DNA of 64,000 nucleotides from Methanosaeta sp. PtaU1.Bin112 (GTDB lineage: Archaea > Halobacteriota > Methanosarcinia > Methanotrichales > Methanotrichaceae): contig MVRL01000088.1 in assembly GCA_002067705.1 (NCBI GenBank), positions 1 through 64,000 of the forward strand. The letters run 5' to 3'. Shown here one piece after another: positions 29,668 to 63,354 of this stretch. The translations under genes were made by a program, and so were the position numbers. Within the stretch, counting starts at the first letter, position 1. Every line of letters begins with the position of its first letter. The notes under the pieces were generated by a model. That model was not told where the DNA came from. It was given only the letters and a program-made list of their open reading frames with translations, and did no database searches.

Positions 29668-30677
29668 ATCTGCCAGAGATAGTTGTCAGCTGTGAGGTGC
29701 TTTACAGGATGCTTTATGCTCCTATTAAAGCTAAGCTGCTGATGAGCGGAATCGAGCTAAAGGTATTTAACCAGCTATCCGGGCCCAAATCCGCGGAAGA
29801 GGTAGCGAAGAATATCGGCTGTCACATCCGCAACACCATGGTATTTTTAAATGGCCTGGCCGCCTGCGACCTCTTAGAAAAGCACAATGGTCTCTATCAG
29901 AACACGCCGATTGCCCAGGCTTTTCTGGTTGAGGGAAGCCCAACCTATCTGGGGGAAGGCTTTGTCCATCAGGCCTCCATCACCGATGCGATGCTGGCAA
30001 ACCTGACAAAGATGATCCGAGAGGGACCGCCGGCAAAGCCTTCGGAGGACGATGCCGATCCTCAAAAATGGAGCCAGTTTGCATCCTGGATGGCCAATAA
30101 TGAGCGCGCGGGCATTGCCCAGCAGATGTCAGAGCTGATCTCTCTGCAGCCTGAGTTTGCATCATTTCGAAAGATGCTGGATCTGGGCGGCGGTCCAGGC
30201 ATCTTTGGAATTTCAATGGTCGCAAATCATCCCACCATGAGAGGAGTGATCTTTGACCGAAAGCCTGTGGTCGAAGTTGCGGAGAGGTTCATCAAAGAGT
30301 ACGGATTGGAGGACCGGATGGAGGTTCTGGCCGGAGACTACAACCATGATCCTATCGGTGAGGGTTACGATCTCATCTGGGCAAGTGCCACCCTCAACTT
30401 TGCCCGAGAAAATATGGACGCGGTTATGAAGAAGATCTACGAGGCCCTCAATCCAGGCGGCCTTTTCGTAAACCTCTCTGAAGGCCTTACTGATGAGGGA
30501 ACGAAGCCGGACTTCTATGTGCTCTGTACTGTGGGCTGGGCCATGAACGGGCCGATGATGGCCTTCGATCAGGGCTTCATTGCCGAATCCATGCTGAAGG
30601 CTGGATTCAGATCGGTGCGCTCTCGCACCCTTGAGACCGGGTGGGGGCCGATGGATATCGACATTGCTCGGAAATGA
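29664..30677 (+). CDS. SAM-dependent O-methyltransferase-like protein coupled to a binding protein
   Basis: This 337-residue two-domain protein has an N-terminal winged-helix dimerisation domain (about 1-100; ELKVFNQLSGPKSAEEVAKNIG) and a C-terminal Rossmann methyltransferase domain with the SAM loop LDLGGGPG at 172-179 and an acidic GVIFDRKPVVEVA. It resembles the class that includes hydroxyneurosporene, catechol-type and BchU methyltransferases. The genes at 47101 and 60836 encode related proteins, each in an operon with binding proteins. Translational coupling to an extracellular binding protein is unusual and suggests methylation of the imported ligand (inference). Confidence 0.85.
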   Translation: MNLPEIVVSCEVLYRMLYAPIKAKLLMSGIELKVFNQLSGPKSAEEVAKNIGCHIRNTMVFLNGLAACDLLEKHNGLYQNTPIAQAFLVEGSPTYLGEGFVHQASITDAMLANLTKMIREGPPAKPSEDDADPQKWSQFASWMANNERAGIAQQMSELISLQPEFASFRKMLDLGGGPGIFGISMVANHPTMRGVIFDRKPVVEVAERFIKEYGLEDRMEVLAGDYNHDPIGEGYDLIWASATLNFARENMDAVMKKIYEALNPGGLFVNLSEGLTDEGTKPDFYVLCTVGWAMNGPMMAFDQGFIAESMLKAGFRSVRSRTLETGWGPMDIDIARK

Positions 30678-36428: not shown

Positions 36429-37511
36429 GTGATTGAGCCTACAAAAAAGATGCGCATTGCGGAGCGCCTGGGCCTGGATCGTGAATTCGGCCTTTCGGAA
36501 TTTAACAAGATATTGATATTGCTTTCTCTCTTGGCCCTGCTGATATTCACAATGGGCTTGGCCATAACCTTTGGAGCCTATAACATCTCAGTCTTCGATG
36601 TCTACTCGATTGTTATGGCTCATCTCACTCCATTTGTCGATCTCTCTTCTGTAACCAAGCTGCATAACACCATCGTCTGGGAGCTGAGAATTCCCCGAGT
36701 CCTGCTTGCAGTGACTGTGGGAACTGCTCTTGCCACCGCCGGCGCGGTCTTTCAGGGATGCTTCAGAAATCCTCTTGTAGAGCCGTACATCCTGGGAATC
36801 TCCTCGGGAGCGGCCTTTGGAGCGGCTCTGGGAATAGTGTTCTCAGACTTTCTCCTGTCGATACAGCTTTCCGCATTCATCTTTGGTTCCCTGGCCGTGG
36901 CCATGGCCTATTTCCTGGCCAGGGTTAGGAAGGAGACGCCCATCGTAACTCTCATCCTGGCAGGTGTTATCATTGGCTCAGTCTTCTCTGCGATGGTCTC
37001 AATCCTCAAGTATGTGGCTACCGATGCAGCTCTGAGGGAGATCGTCTTCTGGCTGATGGGCGGCTTCTACTATGCCACCTGGAATGACGTTCGTCTGCTC
37101 GTGCCCATCATCATACCCAGTTTTCTGATCATGTGGGCATTGGGCTGGAAGCTGAATATCCTCTCCATGGGAGATGACGAAGCCAGGGCCCTTGGAGTCA
37201 ATCCTGAGAAGTACAAGTTTGTCCTGATCACCCTGGCCACATTGGTAACTTCACTGGCGGTATCGACGGTGGGGATAATCGCCTGGGTGGGCCTGATGAT
37301 GCCTCATGCCACGCGCATGATGCTAGGGCCAGATCACCGCTATGTGATTCCGGCATCAGCAATGCTGGGGGGAGCATATCTTCTGGTCTGCGATACCATG
37401 GCCCGGACGCTTACCACCGCTGAGATTCCGGTGGGGATCATCACCTCAATTCTCGGTGCTCCGTACCTGTTCTATCTTCTCAGAACCAGAGGGAAGGCGA
37501 TGCTGGGGTGA
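36429..37511 (+). CDS. FecCD-type ABC permease (intact)
   Basis: This 360-residue permease of the FecCD/BtuC/HmuU family has about ten membrane helices. It begins at GTG 36429. Visible blocks are WELRIPRVLLAVTVGTALATAGAVFQ (about 93-118), NPLVEPYILGISSGAAFGAALG, REIVFWLMGGFYYATW with the Trp lost in the pseudogene at 27185, SMGDDEARALGVNPEKYK (coupling helix), and GLMMPHATRMMLGPDHRYVIP. It forms an importer with the ATPase at 38814 and is the only intact permease of this class in the window. The truncated copy at 56931 is derived from it or from a close sister. Confidence 0.92.
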   Translation: MIEPTKKMRIAERLGLDREFGLSEFNKILILLSLLALLIFTMGLAITFGAYNISVFDVYSIVMAHLTPFVDLSSVTKLHNTIVWELRIPRVLLAVTVGTALATAGAVFQGCFRNPLVEPYILGISSGAAFGAALGIVFSDFLLSIQLSAFIFGSLAVAMAYFLARVRKETPIVTLILAGVIIGSVFSAMVSILKYVATDAALREIVFWLMGGFYYATWNDVRLLVPIIIPSFLIMWALGWKLNILSMGDDEARALGVNPEKYKFVLITLATLVTSLAVSTVGIIAWVGLMMPHATRMMLGPDHRYVIPASAMLGGAYLLVCDTMARTLTTAEIPVGIITSILGAPYLFYLLRTRGKAMLG

Positions 37512-38813: not shown

Positions 38814-39659
38814 ATGACACCTATGCTCGATGTCCGGGATCTTCGTTTCAATTATGGAACCATTCCGGTGCTCAATGGAGTCTCCTTTGATGTGGAAGAA
38901 GGAGAACTCTGCGGCCTATTTGGCCCAAACGGCTGCGGAAAGACGACGCTATTCAAGTGCTGTCTGAACTTTCTGAAATCACATGGTGGATCGGTATTGA
39001 TGGATGGAAAAGACGTAAGGTCTCTCCGGGTCGAGGAGATGGCCAAGGTCGTGGCCTATGTTCCCCAGGAGCACAAGCCTCCATTTCCATACCTCTCCCG
39101 AGAGGTGGTCCTGATGGGACGAACTCCAAGGCTTAATGGATTTTTCGGCATCAGTCGAGAGGATAAGATGAAGGCGGCTGATGCTATGGATCTCCTGGGG
39201 CTCACAGAGCTGGCCGATTTTCCCTATAACCAGCTCTCAGGGGGCCAAAGGCAGATGATTTTGATGGCCCGGGCCATAGCGCAGGAGACGCCGCTCATGT
39301 TTCTGGATGAGCCGACGTCTGCATTGGACTTCAGCAATCAGGTCCGCATCTGGAGGATTATGCGCCTGGTTGCGGAGAGCGGGGTGACAATTCTTGCCTG
39401 CAGCCACGATCCCAACCATGTTAGCTGGTTTTGCGATAAGGTGGTGGTGATGAAGGACAATCGAATCCTCAAGGAGGGGTCGTCCCAGAATGTCATCACT
39501 GAAGACACGATGGATGAGATCTACCAGGATATGTGCTCTGTGAGGAATGTTGGCGGCATAAAGATGGTGCTGCCCAGAGACGTTGCCCTTCGCAATGAGT
39601 GTGAAGGCTTTGCCGGATGGGAGAGTGTACATGAACGCATAGGCAGACAGCATGTTTGA
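38814..39659 (+). CDS. FecE/BtuD-type ABC ATPase
   Basis: This 281-residue ATPase has Walker A GPNGCGKTT at 37-45, YVPQEHKPPFPYLSREVVLMGR at the Q-loop (typical of FecE/HmuV/BtuD), signature LSGGQRQ at 141-147, Walker B LMFLDEPTSALD at 161-172 and the H-loop CSHDPNH. A C-terminal extension of about 30 residues is rich in charged residues. It follows the binding-protein gene by 17 bases and precedes three more binding-protein genes in what looks like one operon. It is the only intact ATPase of this class in the window. Confidence 0.93.
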   Translation: MTPMLDVRDLRFNYGTIPVLNGVSFDVEEGELCGLFGPNGCGKTTLFKCCLNFLKSHGGSVLMDGKDVRSLRVEEMAKVVAYVPQEHKPPFPYLSREVVLMGRTPRLNGFFGISREDKMKAADAMDLLGLTELADFPYNQLSGGQRQMILMARAIAQETPLMFLDEPTSALDFSNQVRIWRIMRLVAESGVTILACSHDPNHVSWFCDKVVVMKDNRILKEGSSQNVITEDTMDEIYQDMCSVRNVGGIKMVLPRDVALRNECEGFAGWESVHERIGRQHV

Positions 39660-44712: not shown

Positions 44713-46323
44713 ATGACAATTAAATCATCTGCAATGGGAAGAGCGTTTGGAATTCTCTTCCTGTCTTTTTTTGTGGCGGCGTCCTTTATCGGGAATGTTG
44801 CGGCAGACTCCGGCGAGGATCCGCTGGTAATTGCAGCAAGCAGCAGCTTCTTTACGCAGGGAAATGTGCTCAGCAAAGGAGGAGTTCCAACTGGGTCATT
44901 TGCCTATGAGGGATTGATCGCCAGGAATAGAGAAGGTGGGTATGACGGATGGCTGGCAAAAAGCTGGGAGTCCAATGACGATGCATCCATTTGGACATTT
45001 CACCTGGTAGATAATGCCACATGGCACGACGGCGAGCCATTCACTTCAGAGGATGTCAAGTTCACACACGATTACTTAAAGAAGAAGAAGCTTTGGCTCT
45101 CATCGGTTCTCTCTAAAGTGGATCATGTAGAATGTCCGGACGAGAACACGGCAATATTCTATCTGAAAACGCCCTTTTCGGCATTTCTCGACAGCCTCTC
45201 TCACTGTCCTGGCATCGGCATCATACCCAAGCACATTTGGGAATCAGTAGATGATCCTGATCATTATGCAGATGACAAGTTTATCGGCACAGGTCCCTTC
45301 AAATTTGAGAAGGCTATCTCAGAGCAGTATGTGAAGCTGGTAGCAAATGAGAATTACCATGGACAAAAACCACAGGTGAAAGAGGCCATACTGAAGATCA
45401 TCACAAACAAGGATTCCCAGATACTCTCCCTGAGGTCAGGTGATGTTGATGTGGTGAGCGACATCAGTCCAGCAGTTGCCAAGAGTCTAATAGGTTCTCA
45501 AGGTATTGATGTGTCGGTTGTTCCTGATACAAGGGGATATGAGCTGGGGATGCAATGCAACAACTCGCCGACAGACAACAAGGATTTCAGAAATGCCATG
45601 GCTCATGCCATCAACAGGGAAAGAATATGCGATATTGTCTTTGATGGATATGCGCATCCAACAATGACGACATTCTTGATGCCTGTGGTGGCGCATGACT
45701 TCGTAAATGAGGATGTGCCTGGAGACGATTACGGGTACGATCTGAAAAAAGCCAAAGACCTCCTCGAATCTGCTGGATTTCTTGATTCAGATGGTGACGG
45801 TTGGAGAGAAGGACCTGATAAAGAGAAGCTGAACTTGATCTTTGTCATTCAAGGAAATGGTGCGGACGCCAGTGGCAGGATGGCTGAGGTTTTAAAAGAA
45901 GAATGGAAACAGATCGGACTGGACGTTAAAATCAAGCTGACTGAGTCGGAGCAATATAGCGAGGAGAGACGACATAGCAATTTCTTCATCTCAGGCATGC
46001 CCTATCTCATGCATGATGATGCCGATGATCTATCTCACTTTGAATGCAACTCCTATTTTGGGCAGAAGAACTGGTATGATTTTAGCAACCAGCGATACAA
46101 TGAGCTGAATGAAAAGCTGAGAAGCATAGCGGACAGGGACGAGCGCAGGAAGATCGGCTACGAGATGCAGGAGATTCTGGCGGATGAGGTCCCATCGGTG
46201 CCCATATGCAGTGCGGATTTGATATTTGCTCACAGATCTGACCGGTTTGCAGGATGGGAGAATTTAACCCCTCTCTATTGGGATGTAGATACCAAGATGC
46301 TTCTTAATTTAAAGAGAGCGTAA
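44713..46323 (+). CDS. Peptide/nickel-type ABC substrate-binding protein next to CooC
   Basis: This 536-residue SBP_bac_5 protein has a signal peptide ending near VAADSG (about residue 32). Blocks are SFAYEGLIARNREGGYDGWLAKSWE, WHDGEPFTSEDVKFTHDYLKK, HIWESVDDPDHYADDKFIGTGPF, FRNAMAHAINRERICD and the ending DEVPSVPICSADLIF. It differs from the DWGFPSPYGHY pair (23941, 34634). Its operon holds a CooC-type nickel ATPase and OppB/OppC permeases. In this setting nickel or a nickel chelate is a reasonable ligand, by analogy with NikA, but no specific nickel-site motif can be shown. Confidence 0.9.
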   Translation: MTIKSSAMGRAFGILFLSFFVAASFIGNVAADSGEDPLVIAASSSFFTQGNVLSKGGVPTGSFAYEGLIARNREGGYDGWLAKSWESNDDASIWTFHLVDNATWHDGEPFTSEDVKFTHDYLKKKKLWLSSVLSKVDHVECPDENTAIFYLKTPFSAFLDSLSHCPGIGIIPKHIWESVDDPDHYADDKFIGTGPFKFEKAISEQYVKLVANENYHGQKPQVKEAILKIITNKDSQILSLRSGDVDVVSDISPAVAKSLIGSQGIDVSVVPDTRGYELGMQCNNSPTDNKDFRNAMAHAINRERICDIVFDGYAHPTMTTFLMPVVAHDFVNEDVPGDDYGYDLKKAKDLLESAGFLDSDGDGWREGPDKEKLNLIFVIQGNGADASGRMAEVLKEEWKQIGLDVKIKLTESEQYSEERRHSNFFISGMPYLMHDDADDLSHFECNSYFGQKNWYDFSNQRYNELNEKLRSIADRDERRKIGYEMQEILADEVPSVPICSADLIFAHRSDRFAGWENLTPLYWDVDTKMLLNLKRA

Positions 46324-46345
46324 ACACTTGTTGATGGTGATAAAG

Positions 46346-47104
46346 ATGAAGACACTTGTATGCGGAAAGGGCGGGAGCGGCAAGAGCACAGTGGCCGCTC
46401 TGCTGGCCAAGAGCATGGATCGCAGAGGATATCGTGTGCTGGTGGTGGACAGCGATGAATCCAATTATGGTCTGCACCGCCTGCTTGGTCTTGATTTGCC
46501 TGAACCTCTGATGAGCTTCTTTGGCGGAAAGAAGGAGATGATCGGCAAGATGATGAAGGCCTTTCCGAAGGGTGAGCAGATCAAGCTCTTCGATGGCAAA
46601 TGGGGATTTGATGACATCCCCAGAGAGCATCTGGCAACCAAGAATGGTATCAGCCTTCTGGCTATTGGCAAGATCCACGATTTCGGAGAGGGATGTGCCT
46701 GTCCCATGGGAGCTTTGGCCAAGATGTTTCTTGACAATTTAGAGGTGAAGGAGAGTGAGGTGGTAATCGTTGATACAGAAGCTGGGATCGAGCATTTCGG
46801 AAGGGGAGTTGAACAGGGGTGCGACATGATTTTGGCAGTTCTTGATCCAACCTATGAATCGCTTCAGCTCTCCAAAAAGATTCTCGATATCTCTCAGAAG
46901 ATCGGAAAGGATCTTCGCTTCGTCCTCAATAGAGTGGATTCAGATCGGGAGGAGGCCATGCTTAAGTCTCTGGCCAATGATAGAGTAGCTGTGGCTATCC
47001 CCGAGGATAAGAGGATTTTTATGGCCGGACTTGTCGGAGAAGACATTGATGTCCGCATCGATGAGATAGAAAAACTGGCTGATTTAGTGGGAGCGAAGGC
47101 ATGA
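46346..47104 (+). CDS. Second CooC-like nickel ATPase
   Basis: This 252-residue CooC/MinD-type ATPase starts at ATG 46346 (GGTGAT five bases upstream; TTG 46328 and ATG 46334 are less likely). Deviant Walker A GKGGSGKS is at 7-14, VVDSDESNYGLHRLLG at 33-48, and the metal-binding CxC pair is C117/C119 (GEGCACPMGAL). It differs from the cdh-operon CooC in the region around the CxC and is therefore a separate paralogue. Placement inside a binding-protein/permease operon suggests that nickel taken up by this importer is handed to the ATPase. It overlaps the methyltransferase start by four bases. Confidence 0.9.
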   Translation: MKTLVCGKGGSGKSTVAALLAKSMDRRGYRVLVVDSDESNYGLHRLLGLDLPEPLMSFFGGKKEMIGKMMKAFPKGEQIKLFDGKWGFDDIPREHLATKNGISLLAIGKIHDFGEGCACPMGALAKMFLDNLEVKESEVVIVDTEAGIEHFGRGVEQGCDMILAVLDPTYESLQLSKKILDISQKIGKDLRFVLNRVDSDREEAMLKSLANDRVAVAIPEDKRIFMAGLVGEDIDVRIDEIEKLADLVGAKA

Positions 47105-48150
47105 ATGCCGAAACTACGAGGGCTGAGAAGCTGGCAGATATGAAGCCGCCTCTTGAAGATCAGGGTAGGATCCTATGGGAACTGATAGCAGGATATGAGG
47201 TGGGCCAGATTTTTCTTAATGCATTTGATTTGGGCATCTTCAAATATCTCAAGGAGCCTAAAAGCCTCGCACAGCTAGCCAGTGAACTGAATCTTCATCC
47301 ACAGGCAACCGAGAAGTTCCTGGATGTTCTGGTCTCGCTTGGCCTTCTAGCCAGAAACGGCGGCGGCTATCTGACCGCCCCGAAAATGGCTCCTTTTTTA
47401 GTTGAGGGAGAACCCCATTATGCTCGTTACCTCAATTTTGCCAATGAAGCCAAAGACAAATGGTCCGATCTGCAAAAAATCCTTCGAAACGGTCCTGTTT
47501 CTGTAAAGAATGAGCATGAGCATAAGTATGATCGTGAGACCATAGACTGGATCGCCCGGGGCGCAATGCTTGGAAGGCTTCAATATACGATTCAGCTTAT
47601 CCGGGAATTTCCTGAGTTTAAGGCTGCTAGAAAGCTGATTGACCTAGGGGGTGGTCATGGACTATTTGGAATAGGGTTTGCCCAGGAGAACCCGGACCTC
47701 GATGTGGTGATCTTCGATCGGCCTGATGTGGCGGAGATCGCTCAGGACTATATCAATCAATATGGGATTGGGAGCAGAGTCCGTGCCATAGGCGGCGACT
47801 ACACAAAAGACGACCTTGGGTCAGGCTATGATATTGCTTTTGAAGCGTGCTCTTTTGGAGGCGATGCAGAGCAGGCAGTATCTTACTATCAGAATGTGGC
47901 TGATTGTCTGAATACTGGAGGGCTTTTTGTTGCTCAGACATTCACCATCGACGATGATAAGAAAGCGCCTCTCCGGAGCATGATATGGGATCTTAAAGAA
48001 CAGATCACCGGGGATGGCCATATGCATCTGCGTACCAACTCAGAGCTATTTGGCATATTAAGGCAAGCCGGGCTGAAGGGGGAAAAGGTCTTGGATCTCT
48101 CATCGAGCATGCCAATGCCCATGAGGCTGGTTGTGGCACGGAAGGAATGA
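47101..48150 (+). CDS. SAM-dependent O-methyltransferase-like protein in the nickel-type operon
   Basis: This 349-residue two-domain methyltransferase has a dimerisation/winged-helix domain (about 25-110; FDLGIFKYLKEPKSLAQLASEL) and a Rossmann domain with SAM loop DLGGGHG at 181-187 and VVIFDRPDVAEIA. It is related to the proteins encoded at 29664 and 60836. The ATG overlaps the CooC-like gene (ATGA), so it is translationally coupled to it. A link between a nickel ATPase, a methyltransferase and an importer is not a pathway I know. Methylation of the carrier molecule that brings the metal is one possibility. Confidence 0.85.
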   Translation: MNAETTRAEKLADMKPPLEDQGRILWELIAGYEVGQIFLNAFDLGIFKYLKEPKSLAQLASELNLHPQATEKFLDVLVSLGLLARNGGGYLTAPKMAPFLVEGEPHYARYLNFANEAKDKWSDLQKILRNGPVSVKNEHEHKYDRETIDWIARGAMLGRLQYTIQLIREFPEFKAARKLIDLGGGHGLFGIGFAQENPDLDVVIFDRPDVAEIAQDYINQYGIGSRVRAIGGDYTKDDLGSGYDIAFEACSFGGDAEQAVSYYQNVADCLNTGGLFVAQTFTIDDDKKAPLRSMIWDLKEQITGDGHMHLRTNSELFGILRQAGLKGEKVLDLSSSMPMPMRLVVARKE

Positions 48151-48180
48151 GCCGGGGAGAAATCTGTCAGAGCTATCGGC

Positions 48181-49158
48181 ATGAGACTTGAATATCTGGG
48201 CTGGAGGGTCTTCTACAGCTTTCTGGCTTTTGCCATAAGCATAACGTTCACCTTCATACTGATTCATGCGATGCCTGGAGATTACCTTCATGTCATACTG
48301 CCAAGCCTGGCGGATAAGAATCCTCTTGCTACGGAGCTCTTTGAAGAGCAGTTCGGCTTTGACAAGCCCCTGGTTGATCAGTACGTGCTCTATGTCATCA
48401 ACGTCTTTCAGGGCAACTGGGGATATTCCATTCAATACGGACAGCCGGTAACGGCAGTGATAATAAGCAAGCTGTGCTGGACCATGATCATCTTGCTTCC
48501 AGCAACGCTCCTTTCCATACTGATAGGTGTAGCAATAGGATCATACTCGGGCTGGTCCAGCGGATCTCTGGCCGACTCTTTTATATTCAAGATCATGATA
48601 TTCCTGGGAGCTGTGCCTTCCTACTGGTGGGCGATAATTCTTATCCTGGTCCTGGGGTTTTATCTCGGTCTTTTCCCATTGGGCGGCTACATGAGCGTCA
48701 GAGCACTGAATGAAGGATTGAGCTACTATGACGTGCTTTATCACGCGGTCCTTCCTATTGTTGCCCTAACCCTTGCTATGGTTCCTGGCGTATACTATCT
48801 CATGAGAACCTCGATGCTTCAGACCGTGGGCCAGGATTATATATTGACTGCTCGCTGTAAAGGGCTAGGCGAGCTGAAAATTCTGCAGCATCATGCTCTG
48901 AAGAACGCCATGCTGCCGATGGTCACGATGATGGCAATAGAACTGGCTCATACGATCATGGGAAGCGTCTTCGTCGAGACCATTTTCTCCTGGCCAGGAA
49001 TGGGCTATCTCACCTATGAGGCCTTGAGGGTAAGAGATATTCCGCTTCTGCAGGGCATATTTTTAATGGATACGCTGATCATCATCCTGGCCAACATGGC
49101 CACAGACTTCAGCTATCCGTTTATTGATCCCAGGGCCGAGGTGGGCAAAATTGGCTAG
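48181..49158 (+). CDS. Peptide/nickel-type ABC permease, OppB/NikB-like
   Basis: This 325-residue permease has HAMPGDYLHVILPSLADKN (about 30-48), FGFDKPLVDQYVLYVINVFQGNWGYS, about six helices, the coupling loop TARCKGLGELKILQHHALKNA (about 223-243), and the ending FSYPFIDPRAEVG. It overlaps the OppC-like gene by eight bases. No ATPase gene follows, so the pair must use ATPases made elsewhere; the OppD/OppF-like proteins encoded at 18332-19995 are candidates. Confidence 0.9.
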   Translation: MRLEYLGWRVFYSFLAFAISITFTFILIHAMPGDYLHVILPSLADKNPLATELFEEQFGFDKPLVDQYVLYVINVFQGNWGYSIQYGQPVTAVIISKLCWTMIILLPATLLSILIGVAIGSYSGWSSGSLADSFIFKIMIFLGAVPSYWWAIILILVLGFYLGLFPLGGYMSVRALNEGLSYYDVLYHAVLPIVALTLAMVPGVYYLMRTSMLQTVGQDYILTARCKGLGELKILQHHALKNAMLPMVTMMAIELAHTIMGSVFVETIFSWPGMGYLTYEALRVRDIPLLQGIFLMDTLIIILANMATDFSYPFIDPRAEVGKIG

Positions 49159-49978
49159 AGACGGCACTTTAGTGGCCGCTCTTCTGATGCTGGCAATCTA
49201 CATCTTGATTGCTGTTTTCAGTCCATACCTGGCACCATATGCTCCATCAGATCTGGCAGGAAGACCCCTGGAGGGACCTGGAAATAGCCACTTACTGGGC
49301 ACCAACGATTTGGGGCAGGACATCTTCAGCAGTCTTTTGTATGGGACCAGAGCAACTTTGTTTCTGGGATTTTTAGGCGGTCTCATTTCAGTCCTGACGT
49401 CGCTGCTTTTTGGAATGGTCTCCGCTTATTATGGAGGACTAACGGACGAGATGGTCACCAGAATAGTGGACATCATGATGACCATCCCTGGATTTCCGTT
49501 GCTCATCGTGCTGGTGGTCTTCCTTCCTCAAAGCTTATTCATCATCGGAGGTGTCATGGGTCTGATTGGAGGAGCGCAGGGGATCAGGGTAATTCGTTCT
49601 CAGGTCTTGTCTCTAGTCGAAGCGGAGTTTATCTATGGTGTCAAAGCTATGGGTGCCAGCGATCACTATGTCATGGCCAAGCATATCCTTCCTGGAGTCT
49701 TTCCCCTGGCAATAATGATGTTCGTCAATGCAGCTCAGAGATATATGCTGATGGGGGTAGGCCTGGGGTTCCTGGGTCTTGGGGACCCATCTGTGATCGA
49801 TTGGGGACAGATGATAAGTCGCGCCTACTCCAATGGCGGATTTGCTTTGGGTCTATGGTGGTGGTTGATACCACCCGGCCTGGCGGTGGTCCTTCTCTCC
49901 TTGGCCTTGGCCCTCTTGGGTTACAGCCTGGAGACTGAGGCTGAACCAAGGCTGAAGATGCGGAAGATGATCCACTGA
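49151..49978 (+). CDS. Peptide/nickel-type ABC permease, OppC/NikC-like
   Basis: This 275-residue permease starts at TTG 49151, which lies just inside the upstream gene with GAGGTGGG before it; a longer TTG form at 49124 is less likely. It carries HLLGTNDLGQDIFSSLLYGTRATL (about 45-68), the EAA-type loop GVKAMGASDHYVMAKHILPGV and the C-terminal GLGFLGLGDPSVIDWGQMI block with GGFALGLWWWLIPPG, diagnostic of the subfamily. It is the last gene of the operon; 121 bases follow before the next start. Confidence 0.9.
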   Translation: MARDGTLVAALLMLAIYILIAVFSPYLAPYAPSDLAGRPLEGPGNSHLLGTNDLGQDIFSSLLYGTRATLFLGFLGGLISVLTSLLFGMVSAYYGGLTDEMVTRIVDIMMTIPGFPLLIVLVVFLPQSLFIIGGVMGLIGGAQGIRVIRSQVLSLVEAEFIYGVKAMGASDHYVMAKHILPGVFPLAIMMFVNAAQRYMLMGVGLGFLGLGDPSVIDWGQMISRAYSNGGFALGLWWWLIPPGLAVVLLSLALALLGYSLETEAEPRLKMRKMIH

Positions 49979-50044
49979 ATATTGGTTCTCATGAGTGACG
50001 AATCACAGTCAAGTTTCGTCTTTTTAAATCATACAATAACTCAA

Positions 50045-50062
50045 AAGTATTAAGTAATACTT
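50045..50062 (+). promoter_or_regulatory. Perfect palindromic repeat before the CobN-type operon
   Basis: AAGTATT-AAGT-AATACTT is an exact seven-base inverted repeat with a four-base spacer, 38 bases before the ATG at 50100. A TATA-like A/T stretch (TTTTTAAATCATACAATAAC) lies just upstream, so a dimeric regulator bound here would sit at the expected transcription start. The regulator is unknown. Confidence 0.5.
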
Positions 50063-50099
50063 GTTCATCATATCATCTTGATTCATAGGTGATTTCAAT

Positions 50100-50546
50100 A
50101 TGCTGATAAAAGAAATACGCATATTTTTTGCGTTATCGTTACTGATTCTATTCGCGTTCGTGCCGTCTTTCTGCGCTGACTCTCAGATGGCTGCTGATAA
50201 TGCGGGCTGTCCCGCCAATATCACAGTGACCGATGCCAATGGCACATTCTGTTTCAGTAATCTCGCTCCCGGCATCTACAATCTTACTGCCCACAGACTG
50301 ATACTCGGCGCCATGCATTACATGGGTGAGGCCTGCGTTGCCGTTCCCGGAAACGAGAGCAATGCGACCATCAAGGTAACAAGGGCCGATGATGCTCAAT
50401 TTGCCGCTCTCCAAAATGTCTCTGTCAATCTGACGCCGGGCAATTATAGCATTACAGGACAGGTTATGGGAGCCAACAGGCCAGGAGCTGAGCCCAGGGA
50501 GATACCATATGAGGAGACCGAGGTAAAGATAACCGCTGCAGAATAG
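50100..50546 (+). CDS. Secreted carboxypeptidase-regulatory-like (beta-sandwich) protein
   Basis: This 148-residue protein has a signal peptide ending near FCADS (about residue 27). A beta-sandwich resembling the carboxypeptidase-regulatory-like fold follows: ITVTDANGTFCFSNLAPGIYNLTAH (about 41-65) and a second half with VNLTPGNYSITGQVMG. Two cysteines (about 38 and 51) may form a disulfide. It is the first gene of a three-gene set with a dockerin-type binding protein (15 bases downstream) and a CobN-type chelatase. It may be a surface partner for the binding protein. Function unknown. Confidence 0.75.
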   Translation: MLIKEIRIFFALSLLILFAFVPSFCADSQMAADNAGCPANITVTDANGTFCFSNLAPGIYNLTAHRLILGAMHYMGEACVAVPGNESNATIKVTRADDAQFAALQNVSVNLTPGNYSITGQVMGANRPGAEPREIPYEETEVKITAAE

Positions 50547-50561
50547 TGAAAGGTGGCCCGA

Positions 50562-51758
50562 ATGTCATTGCTATCAAGATGCTGCAAGTCTCTGCCGGCT
50601 TTCATCATTTTCCTCTCTATAGCCACAGCTCTGCAGAATGTGCCCGGCGACCTCGACGGCAACATGATCGTATCCGATGATGAGATTGCCAGGGCGGAGG
50701 CTGATTTCGCCAAGGGGAGCATCACTGAGCAGAACCTGACGGAGATCAGGCACATCCATGATGCTTATCCCATAACTGTAACCGATACCCAGGGAAGAAA
50801 TGTTACCATCTATCAGCCCATCAAGACCGTGGTCTGCGATATCTCCCATCATCTGGAGACGCTTCGCACACTGGGGGTCCCGGCAAGCACGATCATCGGC
50901 GGTCCGGAGAACATAGACATATATTCCATTTTTCCGGAGTACAAGAAACTGACCTGCGTGGGAAGCTTCTACGAGCCGAATGTTGAGAAGATTATAGAGC
51001 TGCATCCCGATCTCATTCTGATCCATCCTGGGACGGGCAGCGGAACCTTTGGGGCATTTCTCGGCCCGCTCCTGGAGCAGCTGGAGGGGGCAGGGTTGAC
51101 GGTGGCCTGCTTCGCCTGTAGCCGCCCCGAGATCTACACGGGCGAGGTGGAAAAGCTTGGAAGGCTCTTCCAGCACCAGGAAGAAGCTGGGAGGTTCATC
51201 TCCTTTTATAATGGCGTCCTGAAGGCCATCGATGAGAAGGTCAAGGATCTGCCTGAGAAGGAGAGGCCTCTCGTCTACAGCGAGAACCGTCCTTACCGAG
51301 CATCTAATCTCGATATCGCACCCATCCAGGAAGCCGGCGGCAGAAGCCTCTATGAGGGCAAGGGCGATATCCAGGAGGTAAATCCTGAAGATGTAGTGGC
51401 ATCCAATCCCGATGTGATCATTCGCATCATGGGCGAGGAGGATTACGATCGCAGGAACGCAGATGATACCGGCAAGATGGAAGAGATCAGAAAGGAGATC
51501 ATGAACCGGCCGGAGCTGCAGAACACCACCGCTGTAAAACAGGGCAGCGTCCACCTCATCGCTTCTCCTCTCTGGACCTACATGCCTTTCAGCGGCTGCA
51601 GGCACTTCATCGGCGTGGCCTACCTCGCCAAATGGCTTCACCCGGAACTGTTTACAGACCTCGACCCAAAGGCCATTCACCAGAGGTACCTCAGCGAGTT
51701 CCAGGGACTCGACTACGACCTGAATAAGCGGGGAGTGCTGGTCTATCCCCCGTCCTGA
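50562..51758 (+). CDS. TroA/BtuF-like binding protein with N-terminal EF-hand loop (subfamily II)
   Basis: This 398-residue protein starts at ATG 50562 (AGGTGG five bases upstream; GTG 50553 possible). The signal region is followed by an EF-hand-like loop D30 to E41 (DLDGNMIVSDDE), a linker helix and the binding domain (VTDTQGRNVTIYQPIKTVV). It ends RYLSEFQGLDYDLNKRGVLVYPP, shared with the protein encoded at 62125 (subfamily II). It lies 17 bases before the CobN-type gene. That makes a tetrapyrrole such as a corrinoid or heme a plausible ligand, by analogy with systems that pair uptake proteins with CobN/BchH-like chelatases. Confidence 0.88.
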   Translation: MSLLSRCCKSLPAFIIFLSIATALQNVPGDLDGNMIVSDDEIARAEADFAKGSITEQNLTEIRHIHDAYPITVTDTQGRNVTIYQPIKTVVCDISHHLETLRTLGVPASTIIGGPENIDIYSIFPEYKKLTCVGSFYEPNVEKIIELHPDLILIHPGTGSGTFGAFLGPLLEQLEGAGLTVACFACSRPEIYTGEVEKLGRLFQHQEEAGRFISFYNGVLKAIDEKVKDLPEKERPLVYSENRPYRASNLDIAPIQEAGGRSLYEGKGDIQEVNPEDVVASNPDVIIRIMGEEDYDRRNADDTGKMEEIRKEIMNRPELQNTTAVKQGSVHLIASPLWTYMPFSGCRHFIGVAYLAKWLHPELFTDLDPKAIHQRYLSEFQGLDYDLNKRGVLVYPPS

Positions 51759-51775
51759 GGAGAGGAAAGACAAGA

Positions 51776-54700
51776 ATGTTGGTTACATTTATCTCCACGG
51801 TCTCATCCTCGGCTCTGGCCAAGGCCGCCCTGGAGCTCAAGGAACAGTTCCATTTGCCTCTGGAGCTGAAGGTTTACTATCCCAGGCAGATGGATGAGGA
51901 GAAGGTAGACGACGGGATCGTCGCAGAGGATCTGCGCGCCTCTGATGCCGTATTCCTGGATATTCGGGGCTCGGGGCGCAGCATCGACCTGGTCTACCAG
52001 ACCCTGAAGGATGAGCACAACATCGTGGTCAACCTCATGGCTCCCGCTGGGAAGATGATGGAGATCACCCGGCTGGGATCTTTCTCAGGTCGCAGCCTTG
52101 CGGGAAAGATCGGTCGCGGTGAGGCCCGGGATCCTGAAGAGGTCTGGAAGAAGATCTCCCGGGCGGAGAGCCTGGTCCAGACGGCGGGACGGTTGATTCC
52201 TCTGGGGCCGGTGAGGGACGCAGGAAATTACGTGCGCCTGGCCAGATACTGGAGGTACGGCGGAAAGGACAACTATCGGAACTTGCTGATATTGCTGCTC
52301 AGAGAGTACCTGAAATGCGAGCTGCCTCAGGCAAAGGAGCCGGCGGCTTTTCCCGAGTACGGCATATACCATCCGGAGCTGGGATTCTTCCAGGACAGAA
52401 ATGAATTTCTCTCTGCTTCGGGCTACGACCCGGCCCGTCCAACGGTGGGCATTCTATTCTACGGCAATATGCACTTTGAGCAGTGCCAGCCGGTGCTGAG
52501 ATCTCTGCAAAGAACGCTGGATGGCATCAATTTGCTCCCGGTATTTTGCGACGGAATCCACAATCTTCGGGCCATGAGGAAGTTCTTCTTCATTGAAGGG
52601 CGGCCCATGCTGGATGCGCTGGTCAATCTGACCTGGTTTCGCATAAACGGCGGGCCGATGGGCGGCGATCCGGAGCTTACCCGCCAGCTCTTGTCCGATC
52701 TGAGTGCACCCGTCTTCACTCCTGCCTGCATGTATGGCCGGGACATTGATGAGTGGCGCAGCTCGGATACCGGCCTGTCTCCTCTGGAGTCTATAATGGC
52801 AGTGATCTGGCCGGAGCTGGACGGGTCCATAGAGCCGATACCCTGCTGCGCTGTGCAGAACCTGGATCTGGGCGAATGGCAGTCTTGCGAGGTGGCCGCT
52901 CTTGAGGAGCGCGTCTCTAAGATCGCCTCACGCATCAAGAGCTGGATAAGCCTCAAGCGAAAGAGCAACCGGGACAAGCGCCTGGCCATCATCATCTACA
53001 ACTATCCTCCCGGAGAGGAGAACCTGGCTGTGGCCTCCTACCTGGACGTATTCGCCAGCGTCTCCCGCCTTTTGCAGAGGCTGAAGGATGAGGGCTACAA
53101 TGTGGATCTGCCAAAGAAGCCTCTGCACGAGATCTTTCAGGACCTGGGGCTCTTCAATTCTGCATACTGGCAGCAGCCTGAGAGGCTTCTCCGGAGCGGA
53201 TTTAGCCTTGAGGGAGAGGAATATCTGCGGTTCTTCTCCTCCCTGCCTCAGTCGATGCGCTGTGACGTTACACAGGCCTGGGGCGAGCCGCCGGGAAAGG
53301 TAATGGTCGCCGACGGCAGGCTCCTGATTCCGGGCGTTCAGCTGGGCAGCATCTTCCTGGGTGTTCAGCCTGCACGGCCACCCCTGGGAGAAGAGGATGT
53401 CGCAAAGGCCTCGCACGATAAGACCAGGCCGCCCCATCATCAGTACATCGGCTTCTACCACTGGCTGGAGAAGATCTGGAAGGCAGACGCAGTGGTGCAT
53501 GTTGGAACTCACGGTCTCGCCGAGTTTACAAAAGGAAAAGAGATCGGCCTGTCCAACGAGTGTTTTCCAGATCTGCTCATAGGCAGCCTTCCTCATCTCT
53601 ACTTCTACCATGTGGTGAACACCTCTGAGGTTGTGATCGCCAAGCGCAGGCTGTACGGGACCACCATAGGCTACAACTCTCCTCCCTACATGACCTCGGA
53701 TCTCTACAGGGATTATGCCGAGCTGGAGGATCTGATAGACGAGTACGGCCAGGCCAGGCTGCATGATCCGTTGAGAATGAGGCGGATCGAGGAGAAGATC
53801 CTGAAGATGGCCTGTGAGCTTCACCTGAGATCGACGGATCTCGATAGCATCCATGCGGAGCTATACGAGATGAAGCGCAGGATCATACCAAAAGGTCTGC
53901 ACATCATCGGAGAGAGGTATCAGGCCACCGATCTGAAGAGCTTTCTGGAGTTTATCCTGAGGTACGACCGGGAGGAATGCAGATCTCTAAACCGAATACT
54001 TGCGGAGTCTCGCGGGCATAATTTCGATGATCTCTTGAAGGACAAGAGCCGCTATGTGAGCGAACTGGAGGAGATAGACAGGCAGGCATCGCATCTCGCA
54101 GGAGTCTGTCTGGATGACTCGGCTGATGCCGCAGTTCAGGCAAGCGGCCTTGCCCGCGTCCAGGCGGATCGGCTCAGGAAGACCCTGGACTATGGGCTGC
54201 ATTTCCTGGAGATGTACTCCGCAAATGATGGCGAGGTAGAGAGCTTTCTGCAGGGATTGATGATGTCATTCATCCCGGCGGCATCTGGCGGCGATGTCAT
54301 CAGAACGCCGCAGATCCTGCCCACAGGGCGCAACCTCACCCAGTTCGATCCCACCCGCGTTCCCACCCAGACTGCTGTGGAGCGCGGCTCTGAGATCGCC
54401 GAGAACACCCTTTCGGCGTACCTGAAAAAGGAAGGGCGGTTTCCGGAGAGCACTGGCGTAATACTCTGGGGCTTCGAGACCACCAAGACCGGGGGAGAGA
54501 CCATCGGCCAGATCCTCAGCTATCTGGGGGTCCGCCTGGCAAAAGATGCCGGTGCCTGGGCCCCCAGGCTTGATCTCGTGCCCCTTGAGGAGCTGGGAAG
54601 GCCGAGGATCGATGCTCTGGTCAACATCTGCGGATTCTTCAGAGATATGTTCCCCAATGTCGTCCTATTGCTGGATCGGGCCTTCAACCTCGCCGCCGGC

Positions 54701-55525
54701 CAGGATGAGCCACTGGAGATGAACTTCGTGCGCAAGCATTCGCTTCAGAACCGGGAGAGACTGAACTGCATGGGCCTGGATGAGAAGACCGTTCGCAAGA
54801 TGGCAAACGGCCGCATCTTCGGTCCAAAGGCAGGCGAGTACGGGACGAGGATGCTGCCCCTGGTGGAGGACTCGATCTGGAGGACTGAGGAGGAGCTTTG
54901 CGAGGTCTTCATCCAGTCGATGGACCACCTCTACGCCGAGAACCTTCATGCCGTAAAGAACGATGCCATTTACCGCAGCAACCTATCCAGGATCGATCTC
55001 GTCTCCCAGGTACGGGATTCTCACGACCGGGAAATCATCGACCTCGATCACTACTATGAGTTCTTCGGCGGGCTATCCAGAGCGGTACAAAAGGAGCGAG
55101 GAGAGGCAGCGGAGATGCTCATCTCAGACACGACCGGAGAGATAGTCCAGACCGAGGACGTGCAGGATGTGATCGCGCGTGGTGCCAGGACAAGGCTTCT
55201 TAACCCCAAATGGGCGGATGCGATGCTGGAGCATGATTTTCACGGGGCTCAGCAGGTGGCGGACAGGGTTGAGAATATGCTTGGGCTCGCGGCCACAACT
55301 CATTCTGTGGAGAGCTGGATCTGGTCTGAGATAGCCAGCCTGTACATCTTTGACAGGGAGATGCTGGAAAAGCTCTCCCAAAACAATCGATATGCTGCGG
55401 CTGAGGTGACCCAAAGGCTTCTGGAGGCGCAAAGGCGAGGCTACTGGCAGGCTACAGAGGTGGAGAAAGAAAGGATGCGGGAAGCATCTATGGAGATGGA
55501 AGGAAAAATCGAGGAGACGACTTAA
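51776..55525 (+). CDS. CobN/BchH-type chelatase large subunit-like protein
   Basis: This 1249-residue protein is full length for the CobN/BchH/ChlH family, which holds a tetrapyrrole while a metal is put in (cobalt in corrinoids, magnesium in protoporphyrin). In HmuS-type relatives the metal is thought to be taken out. Conserved blocks are VHVGTHGLAEFTKGKEIGLS (about 573-592), LPHLYFYHVVNTSEVVIAKRR, FQLDPTRVPTQ-like QFDPTRVPTQTA (about 857-868), GVILWGFETTKTGGETIGQIL and VFGPKAGEYG-like IFGPKAGEYGTRM. No CobS/CobT or BchI/BchD partner is in the window. Coupling to a secreted binding protein favours salvage or demetallation over de novo synthesis (inference). Confidence 0.88.
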   Translation: MLVTFISTVSSSALAKAALELKEQFHLPLELKVYYPRQMDEEKVDDGIVAEDLRASDAVFLDIRGSGRSIDLVYQTLKDEHNIVVNLMAPAGKMMEITRLGSFSGRSLAGKIGRGEARDPEEVWKKISRAESLVQTAGRLIPLGPVRDAGNYVRLARYWRYGGKDNYRNLLILLLREYLKCELPQAKEPAAFPEYGIYHPELGFFQDRNEFLSASGYDPARPTVGILFYGNMHFEQCQPVLRSLQRTLDGINLLPVFCDGIHNLRAMRKFFFIEGRPMLDALVNLTWFRINGGPMGGDPELTRQLLSDLSAPVFTPACMYGRDIDEWRSSDTGLSPLESIMAVIWPELDGSIEPIPCCAVQNLDLGEWQSCEVAALEERVSKIASRIKSWISLKRKSNRDKRLAIIIYNYPPGEENLAVASYLDVFASVSRLLQRLKDEGYNVDLPKKPLHEIFQDLGLFNSAYWQQPERLLRSGFSLEGEEYLRFFSSLPQSMRCDVTQAWGEPPGKVMVADGRLLIPGVQLGSIFLGVQPARPPLGEEDVAKASHDKTRPPHHQYIGFYHWLEKIWKADAVVHVGTHGLAEFTKGKEIGLSNECFPDLLIGSLPHLYFYHVVNTSEVVIAKRRLYGTTIGYNSPPYMTSDLYRDYAELEDLIDEYGQARLHDPLRMRRIEEKILKMACELHLRSTDLDSIHAELYEMKRRIIPKGLHIIGERYQATDLKSFLEFILRYDREECRSLNRILAESRGHNFDDLLKDKSRYVSELEEIDRQASHLAGVCLDDSADAAVQASGLARVQADRLRKTLDYGLHFLEMYSANDGEVESFLQGLMMSFIPAASGGDVIRTPQILPTGRNLTQFDPTRVPTQTAVERGSEIAENTLSAYLKKEGRFPESTGVILWGFETTKTGGETIGQILSYLGVRLAKDAGAWAPRLDLVPLEELGRPRIDALVNICGFFRDMFPNVVLLLDRAFNLAAGQDEPLEMNFVRKHSLQNRERLNCMGLDEKTVRKMANGRIFGPKAGEYGTRMLPLVEDSIWRTEEELCEVFIQSMDHLYAENLHAVKNDAIYRSNLSRIDLVSQVRDSHDREIIDLDHYYEFFGGLSRAVQKERGEAAEMLISDTTGEIVQTEDVQDVIARGARTRLLNPKWADAMLEHDFHGAQQVADRVENMLGLAATTHSVESWIWSEIASLYIFDREMLEKLSQNNRYAAAEVTQRLLEAQRRGYWQATEVEKERMREASMEMEGKIEETT

Positions 55526-56822: not shown

Positions 56823-56930
56823 TTTTGCACCCTTTTTTGCTAACCAATAAGAATTCAATAATACTAACTGCTAAATTTATTGGATATGAGCGCTATGATA
56901 GAACATGAAATGGTTCGATGGTGAACTCTC

Positions 56931-57359
56931 ATGGAAGGGTTGACAAAAAGGATGCGAATTGCTGAAAGCATAGGCCTCAATCAGGAATACGATTTCTCAG
57001 AAATTCACAAGATGCTGATCCTCCTCGCTCTTTTTCTGCTGCTTATCATCGCCGTGGGCGTAGCTATAACCTTCGGAGCTTACAACATTTCGGTCTCTGA
57101 TGTATACAGGATCGTAATGGCTCATATGACGCCATTCGGAGACCTCTCTTCTGTCACCAAGCTGCATAACACCATCCTCTGGGAGCTTATAATTCCCCGA
57201 GTCCTGCTTGCCGTGACTGTGGGAACTGCTCTTGCCACCGCCGGCGCGGTCTTTCAGGGATGCTTCAGAAATCCTCTCGTAGAGCCGTACATCCTGGGAA
57301 TCTCCTCGGGGGCGGCCTTTGGAGCGGCTATGGGAATAGTGTTCTCAGATTTTCCTTGA
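56931..57359 (+). pseudogene. Truncated FecCD permease copy
   Basis: This 142-residue remnant matches the N-terminal 40 percent of the permease at 36429 (360 residues), then stops at SDFP. The 5' half is clearly diverged from that gene. From about 57193 the DNA is nearly identical to it (roughly five differences in 165 bases by eye), suggesting recent recombination or gene conversion before the break. It cannot form a working permease because eight or so helices are missing. It has an intact start and no frameshift, so the truncation is probably recent. Confidence 0.85.
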
Positions 57360-60835: not shown

Positions 60836-61879
60836 GTGATTGACATGCTGAAAAAAATTAAGCAGGACTTCGAGCAGGTTCTGGAGTCAGATAAGGACTC
60901 CCGCGATCTGCGCAGCTTATCCATGTCCCTGGATACGTTCTACGCTCTCACCTCAGCCCTTGAGGTGGGCATATTTCAGAGTCTTATGCAGCCCAAGTGC
61001 TCTTCAGAGGTAGCCGCAGAACTGGGCCTTCATGCAGAGATCACTGAAAAGCTCTGCAAGGCTCTTGCATCGAGAGGATATCTTTTCAGAGAGGGCGGCA
61101 GTTATGCCCTCTCCGATCAAGCCAGGACATTTCTCACCGAGTCCTCGCCGTTCTATCAAGGAAACCTCATAAAATTGATGCAGAGAACACGCGCGCAGCG
61201 GTGGAGCAGCCTGGCCAGAGCACTCAAAGAAGGCCCTATCGCCGCTCCGTCTGGAGCGCAGGTCTTCGATGAGTTCTTCGCCCTGGCGATGGCCGAGGGC
61301 GCAGTTGGAGGATCGCTGCAAAGGACGGTAAGAGCGCTAAAGAGGATGCCACAATTTCATGAGGCCAGAAAGTGCCTAGACCTTGGGGGCAGTCATGGGC
61401 TGTACTCACTGGCATTTGCTCGTTTGAATCCGGATCTTGAGGTAGTGCTCTTTGATCTTGCCAAAGTAATAGAGGGCGCTGCAAAAAAAGTGGTGTCTGA
61501 TTCGGAGAAGATAGTCACAATGGCAGGAGATTTCAATAGCGATGATCTGGGCAAGGATTACGATTTTGTCTTTGCCTCTGATGTGCTCTACAGGAATGAA
61601 GAATCGCTCCGTCCTTTGCTGACCAGGATCAGGGAAAGCCTGAAACATGATGGGCTGCTGATTAGCAAGCACTATCATATCGATGACCTCGTTAGCGACT
61701 CTTCGGCCGTTCTCTTCGATCTGATGTTCTCCGTATCCGGGACAGGTGGTGTCGTCTATTCGTCTGCTGGTTTCTGTCGCCTCCTGGAGTCGGCTGGATT
61801 TTCAATCGTTCAGGTGGATGATATCAGCAGCCCGGCAAGTCCCAGCAAGATCATAACCGCAAGGAAACTCGGGCATTGA
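60836..61879 (+). CDS. SAM-dependent O-methyltransferase-like protein
   Basis: This 347-residue two-domain methyltransferase starts at GTG 60836; ATG 60845 is an alternative. A helical N-terminus and winged-helix dimer domain (EVGIFQSLMQPKCSSEVAAELGL, about 43-65) precede the SAM loop LDLGGSHG (181-188), VVLFDLAKVIEGA and a C-terminal KHYHIDDLVSDSSA region. It is related to the proteins encoded at 29664 and 47101. Six bases separate it from the preceding methyltransferase gene. It is the last gene of the 57514-61879 set. The same pairing of binding proteins and this methyltransferase type occurs three times in the window. Confidence 0.85.
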   Translation: MIDMLKKIKQDFEQVLESDKDSRDLRSLSMSLDTFYALTSALEVGIFQSLMQPKCSSEVAAELGLHAEITEKLCKALASRGYLFREGGSYALSDQARTFLTESSPFYQGNLIKLMQRTRAQRWSSLARALKEGPIAAPSGAQVFDEFFALAMAEGAVGGSLQRTVRALKRMPQFHEARKCLDLGGSHGLYSLAFARLNPDLEVVLFDLAKVIEGAAKKVVSDSEKIVTMAGDFNSDDLGKDYDFVFASDVLYRNEESLRPLLTRIRESLKHDGLLISKHYHIDDLVSDSSAVLFDLMFSVSGTGGVVYSSAGFCRLLESAGFSIVQVDDISSPASPSKIITARKLGH

Positions 61880-62124: not shown

Positions 62125-63354
62125 ATGAAGCTTATTATTTTGATTTCAGTGATCATATTGGCTCTGGTTCCAGTATCTAATGCATCCGGCTGGACCTTGG
62201 AGATCTTCGGAAACGCCAACTTGGATGATACCATCGATGAAGAAGACATAAGATATGTTGGGGGGATACTTGCCGGAAGCAATAATTCGACTGATTTCGC
62301 CGATGCCAACCACGACGGCCTGGTGGACGGAAAAGACATCGAGCAGATAAGGTCAATTATTAATGGCGAGGAGAAGGAGCTTACCCTCTTGGATACGGCA
62401 GGCCGGGTTGTCACCGTTAAGAAGCCTCTAAAGACCCTGGTGGGCTCAAATATTGCTGTTATGAAATCACTGGGATTGGACATTAAGGACATGGTTATCG
62501 GAAGATATAACCAGGTCGATGTGCAGGCCTTCCCAGAGCTTTCCGATGAGCTTCTCGATGTTGGATCTGGCTGGTCTCCTGACATTGAAAAAATCCTCAA
62601 GCTCAATCCTGATGTGGTGTTCCTCTATCCACCCGGATTTACCTATGATACAAAGCCAACATTACAGTCTCTTGAGTCATCGGGAATGACCGTTCTCTGC
62701 TTCAAGCTGCAGACTCCGCAGATTCACCGGGAAGAGGTAACCAAGCTGGGATACATCTTCAACAAGAGAGATGAGGCAGAGAGGTATCTCGACTGGTATG
62801 AGGGAGTAATCGATGATGTTAAGGAGACTGCCAAAAGCATTCCAGACGAGAAAAAGGTCAAGGTATACTTCGAGTCCTATAAGCCGTATACCAGCTATCC
62901 TCAATACGGATACATCAACGAATCCGGCGGCATAGACATATTTGCAGGAAGGCCTGGGGGTGAGGTTGATCCTGAGGCGGTGGTGAATGCCGATCCTGAT
63001 GTCATTCTTAAGGTGGCTTATCCTGGTGGAGGATATGAAAAGGATGCTGAAAACAACTCGGATATTATGGCGCTGCGTGATGAGATCCTGAGCCGTCCGG
63101 AACTTGCAAATGTTACTGCAGTTAAGAATGGTCGAGTCTATATCATTACCTCTTATTTGCTGACGTATCTTCCCCACTGCAATAACCTGGAATGCTTCCA
63201 GATAGCCTATCAAGCCAAATGGTTCTATCCGGATCTGTTCCCGAAGCTTGATCCGGATGCAATTCTGGAAGGCTATCTGACCGAGTTTCAGGGATGGAAT
63301 TTCGATCTGAACAAGAATGGTGTGTTCGTCTATCCGCCGCTGGGGGAGAATTGA
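62125..63354 (+). CDS. TroA/BtuF-like binding protein with N-terminal dockerin-like domain (subfamily II)
   Basis: This 409-residue protein has a signal peptide ending near SNASG (about 21). A complete two-repeat dockerin-like calcium domain follows: N30-x-N32-x-D34-x-x-x-D38-x-x-D41, and D60-x-N62-x-D64-x-x-x-D68-x-x-D71. Then comes the binding domain (LLDTAGRVVTVKKPLKTLVG onward). It ends YLTEFQGWNFDLNKNGVFVYPP, shared with the protein encoded at 50562. Dockerin-type domains bind calcium and usually dock to cohesins; here they may anchor or pair proteins at the archaeal surface. A FecCD permease gene follows at 63446. Confidence 0.9.
   Translation: MKLIILISVIILALVPVSNASGWTLEIFGNANLDDTIDEEDIRYVGGILAGSNNSTDFADANHDGLVDGKDIEQIRSIINGEEKELTLLDTAGRVVTVKKPLKTLVGSNIAVMKSLGLDIKDMVIGRYNQVDVQAFPELSDELLDVGSGWSPDIEKILKLNPDVVFLYPPGFTYDTKPTLQSLESSGMTVLCFKLQTPQIHREEVTKLGYIFNKRDEAERYLDWYEGVIDDVKETAKSIPDEKKVKVYFESYKPYTSYPQYGYINESGGIDIFAGRPGGEVDPEAVVNADPDVILKVAYPGGGYEKDAENNSDIMALRDEILSRPELANVTAVKNGRVYIITSYLLTYLPHCNNLECFQIAYQAKWFYPDLFPKLDPDAILEGYLTEFQGWNFDLNKNGVFVYPPLGEN

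Follow-up and report, generated by a model that had tools for sequence, protein, structure and literature searches.

The window considered here, bases 1-64,000 of contig MVRL01000088.1 (C88) of the Methanothrix-type archaeon Methanosaeta sp. PtaU1.Bin112 (genome G000; 3.44 Mb in 200 contigs), contains at positions 50100-55525 an operon of three open reading frames (ORFs) on one strand, separated by gaps of 15 bp (ORF1/ORF2) and 17 bp (ORF2/ORF3). The operon encodes two secreted proteins and a large subunit of a class I chelatase, and its possible role in the salvage of tetrapyrroles, corrinoids being the likeliest among them, is discussed below. An earlier note on the window had described three closely spaced genes behind a perfect palindrome; their coordinates were confirmed, as were the 8-bp arms of the palindrome around its 2-bp centre. 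The features of the operon are as follows:

50100..50546, plus strand: ORF1, secreted beta-sandwich protein (CarboxypepD_reg/CNA-B-like), 148 aa; signal peptide, Pfam matches sub-threshold
50562..51758, plus strand: ORF2, secreted FecB/BtuF-type solute-binding protein, 398 aa; PF01497 Peripla_BP_2, E=1.9e-20
50649..50684, plus strand: canonical EF-hand calcium loop DLDGNMIVSDDE, ORF2 residues 30-41, found by sequence inspection
51776..55525, plus strand: ORF3, BchH/ChlH-like class I chelatase large subunit, 1249 aa; PF02514, 1102 bits
53498..53515, plus strand: HVGTHG motif with H579, equivalent of HmuS His538, from the alignment
55040..55072, plus strand: DLDHYYEFFGG motif with H1092 and E1095, equivalents of HmuS His1209 and Glu1212, from the alignment

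ORF3 scores 935 with the BchH model TIGR02025, above the cutoff of 829, and 631 with the CobN model TIGR02257, under the cutoff of 822. Its predicted structure (residues 143-1249; predicted local distance difference test, pLDDT, 90) has the ChlH/CobN/HmuS fold, with TM-scores (TMq) of 0.81-0.86 to these three proteins and the best value, 0.86, for HmuS (9d26). A tree, suggested by the earlier note, was built from 97 proteins with anchors taken from annotated plasmids, including the HmuS encoded beside HmuY in Bacteroides finegoldii. It places ORF3 outside the cobalt-inserting CobN, in a separate 79-member clade (branch support 100) apart from the CobN anchors (support 100) and photosynthetic BchH. 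The hosts of this clade are anaerobes: methanogens, ANME-1, Alkanophaga, Asgard archaea, Clostridia, Chloroflexi, and others. The branching order of HmuS, BchH, and the ORF3 clade is not settled even by a mixture model; the clade joins photosynthetic BchH with 25% support, and its grouping with HmuS, of which the tree holds a single long-branched sequence, has p=0.47 in the approximately unbiased (AU) test. Judged by scores and tree position, ORF3 is not a CobN. In relatives from the same class (G050-G080), PF02514 proteins also occur as open frames of 1500-2500 aa, which far exceeds the length of CobN.

The earlier note had connected this CobN/BchH-like protein with HmuS, and the connection holds in part: the HmuS-type histidine pair and glutamate are present in ORF3, but genes for HmuY, MotA/ExbB, and DUF2149 occur within 10 kb at none of the 77 loci used for absences, and the propionate pocket of HmuS (Gln1198, Ser1199, Trp1202) aligns with Asp, Ser, and Arg, so the Gln/Trp pair is not kept; on these grounds ORF3 is not an HmuS. 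HxGTHG is conserved in 79/79 clade members and LDHxxExxGG in 78/79, the exception being cut by a contig end, while CobN proteins lack the histidine of the second motif and BchH has Asp in place of Glu. The HmuS-like motif was rejected as a proof of de-chelation; by itself it is indecisive on the direction of metal transfer because photosynthetic BchH retains the same histidine. A chlorophyll-pathway context was not found, the BchL-, BchB-, and BchU-like proteins of the genome all being far under cutoffs. Reading of the termini of ORF3, with no predictor run, revealed no membrane anchors.

The EF-hand binding protein described earlier proved to be ORF2, a solute-binding protein of the FecB/BtuF family of ATP-binding cassette (ABC) transporters with one EF-hand loop. 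Its predicted model has a pLDDT of 89, and the top Foldseek matches are iron/siderophore binding proteins, followed at lower rank by heme-binding HmuT/BhuT. The best Pfam match of ORF1, CarboxypepD_reg, is sub-threshold (E=1e-5); an ortholog is present at locus L025 (63%), and on contig C84 a domain of this kind is fused to a binding protein. Since the genome encodes 69 PF01497 proteins, the presence of one such protein beside a gene says little about a functional link, and recurrence of the association across phyla is stronger evidence of an uptake link than one adjacency in this genome. Among 48 clade loci with enough flank, a binding protein, FecCD permease, energy-coupling factor (ECF) component, TonB receptor, or NEAT protein is encoded no more than 5 kb away from the chelatase in 38. 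The search for the operon in relatives found ORF2-ORF3 adjacency in seven further loci (L025, L026, L028, L029, L030, L039, L040), and each of the five diderm loci that have flanks (L058, L059, L069, L088, L097) encodes a TonB receptor. At bacterial locus L085, genes for a NEAT protein, sortase, IsdE-like binding protein, permease, ATPase, chelatase, ChlI, and ChlD stand in a row. NikABCDE-type transporter genes are found near the chelatase in the window and at L048, L049, L073, L076, and L097, and the corrin-ring genes CobG/CobH/CbiE near none of the 77 loci. The uptake link proposed in the earlier note is thus borne out for the clade across phyla. Two side observations concern these loci. 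A lipoprotein family of 160-190 aa is conserved in bacterial operons (L065, L068, L071, L073, L076, L078, L080, L084, L085, L089), with no Pfam match in the one member scanned (L085), and a contig binned as Archaeoglobales (L060) has a TonB receptor, for which misbinning is possible.

Regulation of the bacterial relatives bears on the cargo. Rfam scans of 30 bacterial loci showed that in 19 of them the same-strand run to which the chelatase belongs begins with a cobalamin riboswitch. Because bacterial genomes hold 0-18 cobalamin riboswitches each, well under one coincidence would be expected among the 30 loci by an arithmetic estimate. At L088 and L097, the chelatase gene and the TonB-receptor gene each have their own cobalamin riboswitch, and NikABCDE-type transporters are under such riboswitches at L073, L076, and L097. 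At L080, a riboswitch of this kind stands ahead of the NEAT gene (L080:5607-6783) and of the entire operon, hinting at a corrinoid-related role of this NEAT protein. On contig C169 of the archaeal genome itself, CbiC and CbiZ have PF01497 binding proteins beside them. Of the cargoes named in the earlier note (a corrinoid, heme, or F430-like tetrapyrrole), the riboswitches and the CbiC and CbiZ neighbours favour a corrinoid or another cobalt compound. A heme-only reading was favoured on the NEAT and TonB neighbours and was demoted after the riboswitch scans.

The next issue is the source of energy. The earlier note had observed that the window has no CobS/T or BchI/D gene, which is true locally; however, with partnership in the genome judged by ChlID matches, two fused ChlI-ChlD proteins above the TIGR02442 cutoff are encoded elsewhere in the genome (C155, C7), and ChlID lies within 5 kb of the chelatase in 25 of the 48 clade loci. 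Because of these two proteins, an energising partner would be supplied in trans, its pairing with ORF3 being presumptive for either one, and the absence of ChlI/D from the window was rejected as evidence of an ATP-free enzyme. A PF01078 match on C109 is, on reading, an MCM helicase and was discarded as a chelatase motor. In 49 genomes of the family, a strong ChlID match was scored in 33/39 chelatase-positive and 1/10 chelatase-negative genomes (Fisher p=2.1e-5), one positive being a contig-edge fragment.

Four chelatase genes of the genome are full-length, and two half genes, perhaps one split gene, lie at the ends of contigs. BchH-like chelatases are encoded in the window and on C84, and separate archaeal CobN-type proteins on C155 and C136. 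These CobN-type paralogs (also at L028, L031, L047, and L050), often in tandem with a BchH-like gene, carry GCCCYFxxHGG at the position of the HmuS axial histidine, which may form a metal site with cysteine ligands. The genome also has four nitrogenase-like HDK trios, which resemble BchB/NifE and CfbC and lie under model cutoffs where scored; they are located on C136 (L013:4474-7847), C72 (L015:133-3500), C154 (L125:5000-8697), and C88 (76.8-80.4 kb; L019/L020); each adjoins chelatase paralogs or binding proteins, and at L062 such a trio lies directly 3' of a BchH-like gene. Class II chelatases are represented by CbiX on C163 and by CbiK with a signal peptide on C129 (L123:4906-5820). CbiK-type genes with a signal peptide (C129; L042, L062, L101, L103) adjoin binding-protein and FecCD genes near BchH-like genes and may encode an extracytoplasmic chelatase.

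It is proposed, with confidence slightly short of even, that the operon provides the capture and chelatase functions of a system for tetrapyrrole salvage, that its likeliest cargo is a corrinoid or another cobalt tetrapyrrole, and that the chemistry is ATP-driven metal removal or exchange. In the proposed mechanism, secreted ORF2, with its calcium-binding loop, would catch a corrinoid-type tetrapyrrole outside the membrane, ORF1 would act as an accessory surface protein, and a FecCD/FecE-type ABC importer encoded nearby would carry the ligand inside. ORF3, as a soluble ChlH-like body, would hold the tetrapyrrole between H579 and H1092/E1095 and strip or swap its central metal, and the fused ChlI-ChlD motor proteins encoded elsewhere would supply ATP energy in trans. 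The cargo in this archaeon is suggested by analogy with the bacterial relatives, and the choice of the particular permease and ChlID is provisional. Several observations weigh against this proposal. No cobalamin riboswitch was found in this genome or in five other archaeal genomes examined, so that for the archaeal branch the corrinoid link is drawn from relatives and from one contig. NEAT, a heme-binding domain, occurs in proteins adjoining the chelatase in two bacterial members (L080, L085). Foldseek gives ORF2 a binding-protein fold and singles out no corrinoid binder, and the chance that any 15-kb stretch of this genome holds a PF01497 protein is about 26%. The CobN of the Dehalobacter restrictus operon compared below (Dehre_0287) is likened to the ORF3 clade by operon gene content, as a putative member. 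Finally, the direction of metal transfer is not readable from sequence.

Two other explanations, both unlikely and to a similar degree, concern the cargo and the direction of the reaction. The uptake-coupled system might bring in heme or another iron or nickel tetrapyrrole, including F430, from which ORF3 would strip the metal as HmuS does, here with an AAA+ motor. This is consistent with the HmuS-type His/His/Glu set, with HmuS as the best structural match, with NEAT, sortase, and IsdE-like binding protein at L085, and with the TonB receptors of L058, L088, and L097, which score best with the hemin receptor model; the receptors of L059 and L069, however, score best with the B12 model (all five being below cutoffs), and the riboswitches at 19/30 loci, the absent HmuY, MotA, and DUF2149, and the Asp and Arg in place of the propionate-pocket Gln and Trp argue against it. 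In the other explanation, ORF3 and ChlID would work as a metal-inserting chelatase, supplying cobalt or another metal to a corrinoid or tetrapyrrole that is imported without its metal or with a wrong one, or that is made by the cell. The above-cutoff TIGR02025 score, a motor related to those that power insertion in known enzymes, and the nitrogenase-like reductases beside chelatase paralogs, suggestive of tetrapyrrole chemistry, speak for insertion. Against it stands CbiD, a marker of early-cobalt-insertion, de novo anaerobic B12 synthesis, which is encoded in 28 of the 32 genomes examined, so that there is no obvious need for an enzyme inserting cobalt late; class II chelatases in this genome and the absence of corrin-ring genes beside clade members point the same way.

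It might also be considered that the neighbourhood is one of ordinary metal uptake, in which the chelatase merely happens to lie amid numerous duplicated genes for binding proteins and serves a housekeeping function unconnected with ORF1 and ORF2. The abundance of PF01497 proteins, which makes adjacency alone weak, fits this explanation; nevertheless, the short gaps within one operon, the ORF2-ORF3 adjacency at the seven further loci, and above all the recurrence of the association in bacteria of several phyla, because of which a fully chance neighbourhood is unlikely, render it very improbable. Returning to corrinoid salvage, removal or exchange of the metal appears more likely than insertion, in view of the early-insertion pathway of these organisms, the class II chelatases encoded in this genome, and the agreement of the His/His/Glu set with that of a known de-chelatase. 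A bolder and rather doubtful extension is that ORF3 with ChlID might be the first ATP-driven corrinoid de-chelatase, an anaerobe-wide ChlH relative working in reverse, stripping cobalt or exchanging a wrong metal, and coupled in archaea to secreted EF-hand binding proteins and nitrogenase-like ring reductases.

The surroundings of the operon contain candidate control elements and transport genes:

50020..50029, plus strand: TATA-like element ctttttaaat, candidate archaeal promoter, by sequence inspection
50045..50062, no strand assigned: inverted repeat AAGTATTA-AG-TAATACTT, candidate operator near the expected transcription start
44713..49978, plus strand: NikA-like, P-loop ATPase, methyltransferase, NikB-like, and NikC-like genes, directly upstream of the operon
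36429..37511, plus strand: nearest complete FecCD-type permease, candidate partner of ORF2
38814..39659, plus strand: FecE-type ABC ATPase, candidate partner of ORF2, by sequence reading

The inverted repeat at 50045-50062, with perfect 8-bp arms and a 2-bp centre, comes after the TATA-like stretch, and therefore an operator role is plausible. It is the sole such site genome-wide with 0 or 1 mismatch allowed. Since there is one exact genomic copy, no regulon can be traced from it, and the palindrome was dropped as a regulon marker. With up to 3 mismatches, two sites are found within the window against 0.09 expected; the second (56849-56866, 3 mismatches) lies just 5' of a truncated permease gene. 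This FecCD gene (56931-57359) matches PF01032, shares 83% DNA identity along 416 bases with the complete copy at 36429, and is, on comparison with that copy, a leftover of a segment duplication. Three PF00891 methyltransferases with weak BchU matches (29664-30677, 47101-48150, 60836-61879) lie among binding-protein genes. Dockerin-like EF-hand pairs occur on binding-protein arrays in the window (62125-63354) and at 64-85 kb of C88 (L019, L020), and in Alkanophaga loci (L047:15191-16441, L050:12862-13629) cohesin-domain proteins (PF00963) adjoin a binding protein, which suggests cohesin-dockerin anchoring of ABC binding proteins.

Methanogens and methane oxidisers are heavy users of cobalt and nickel tetrapyrroles, and the proposed role of the operon would bear on how they scavenge scarce cofactors. 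The functions of archaeal ChlH/CobN/HmuS homologs were called unclear in a 2025 study of HmuS (PMC12583661), archaeal ChlD was left unexplained by a 2022 study (PMC9227772), and no enzyme removing cobalt from a corrin turned up in the literature searched. Linking the clade to cobalamin-riboswitch operons and import machinery turns this long-unexplained protein family into a specific, testable question. The operon type is already known in bacteria and, as far as the literature searched shows, biochemically uncharacterised; what is new is the archaeal variant, whose binding proteins carry EF-hands, whose ChlID is encoded in trans, and which is without a riboswitch.

Compared with known systems, ORF3 shares with CobN of the CobNST complex the PF02514 family, the fold, and a ChlI/D-type partner in the genome, but it scores below the TIGR02257 cutoff, belongs to another clade, has the second histidine, and has no late-insertion corrin genes nearby. 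With ChlH/BchH, it shares the fold, a TIGR02025 score above the curated cutoff, and a ChlI/ChlD-type motor; unlike BchH, it belongs to a separate clade, has Glu instead of Asp in the second motif, and stands in an uptake and B12 context. HmuS, the heme de-chelatase of Bacteroides, with key residues His538, His1209, and Glu1212 (PDB 9d26; PMC12583661), resembles ORF3 in fold, in the axial histidine pair and glutamate, and in the uptake-operon setting. The two differ in that an AAA+/VWA ChlID partner takes the place of HmuY, MotA, and DUF2149, in the propionate-pocket residues, and apparently in the terminal membrane anchors, none of which were seen on reading the ORF3 termini. Operon-2 of Dehalobacter restrictus combines a FepBCD/BtuCDE-like transporter, CobN, Mg-chelatase subunits, and CbiZ under a cobalamin riboswitch, is induced under corrinoid starvation 346-fold at the transcript and 46-fold at the protein level, and is syntenic with Acetobacterium woodii (PMC4285132). 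Unlike this operon, which contains CbiZ and the Mg-chelatase subunits, the archaeon encodes ChlID and CbiZ elsewhere, its genome is without a cobalamin riboswitch, and its binding proteins carry EF-hand modules. Both systems nevertheless combine FecBCD/BtuFCD-type import genes with a class I chelatase, here as the ORF2-ORF3 operon with FecCD and FecE genes in the same window, and the bacterial loci of the ORF3 clade share with operon-2, in 19 of the 30 cases, the cobalamin riboswitch.

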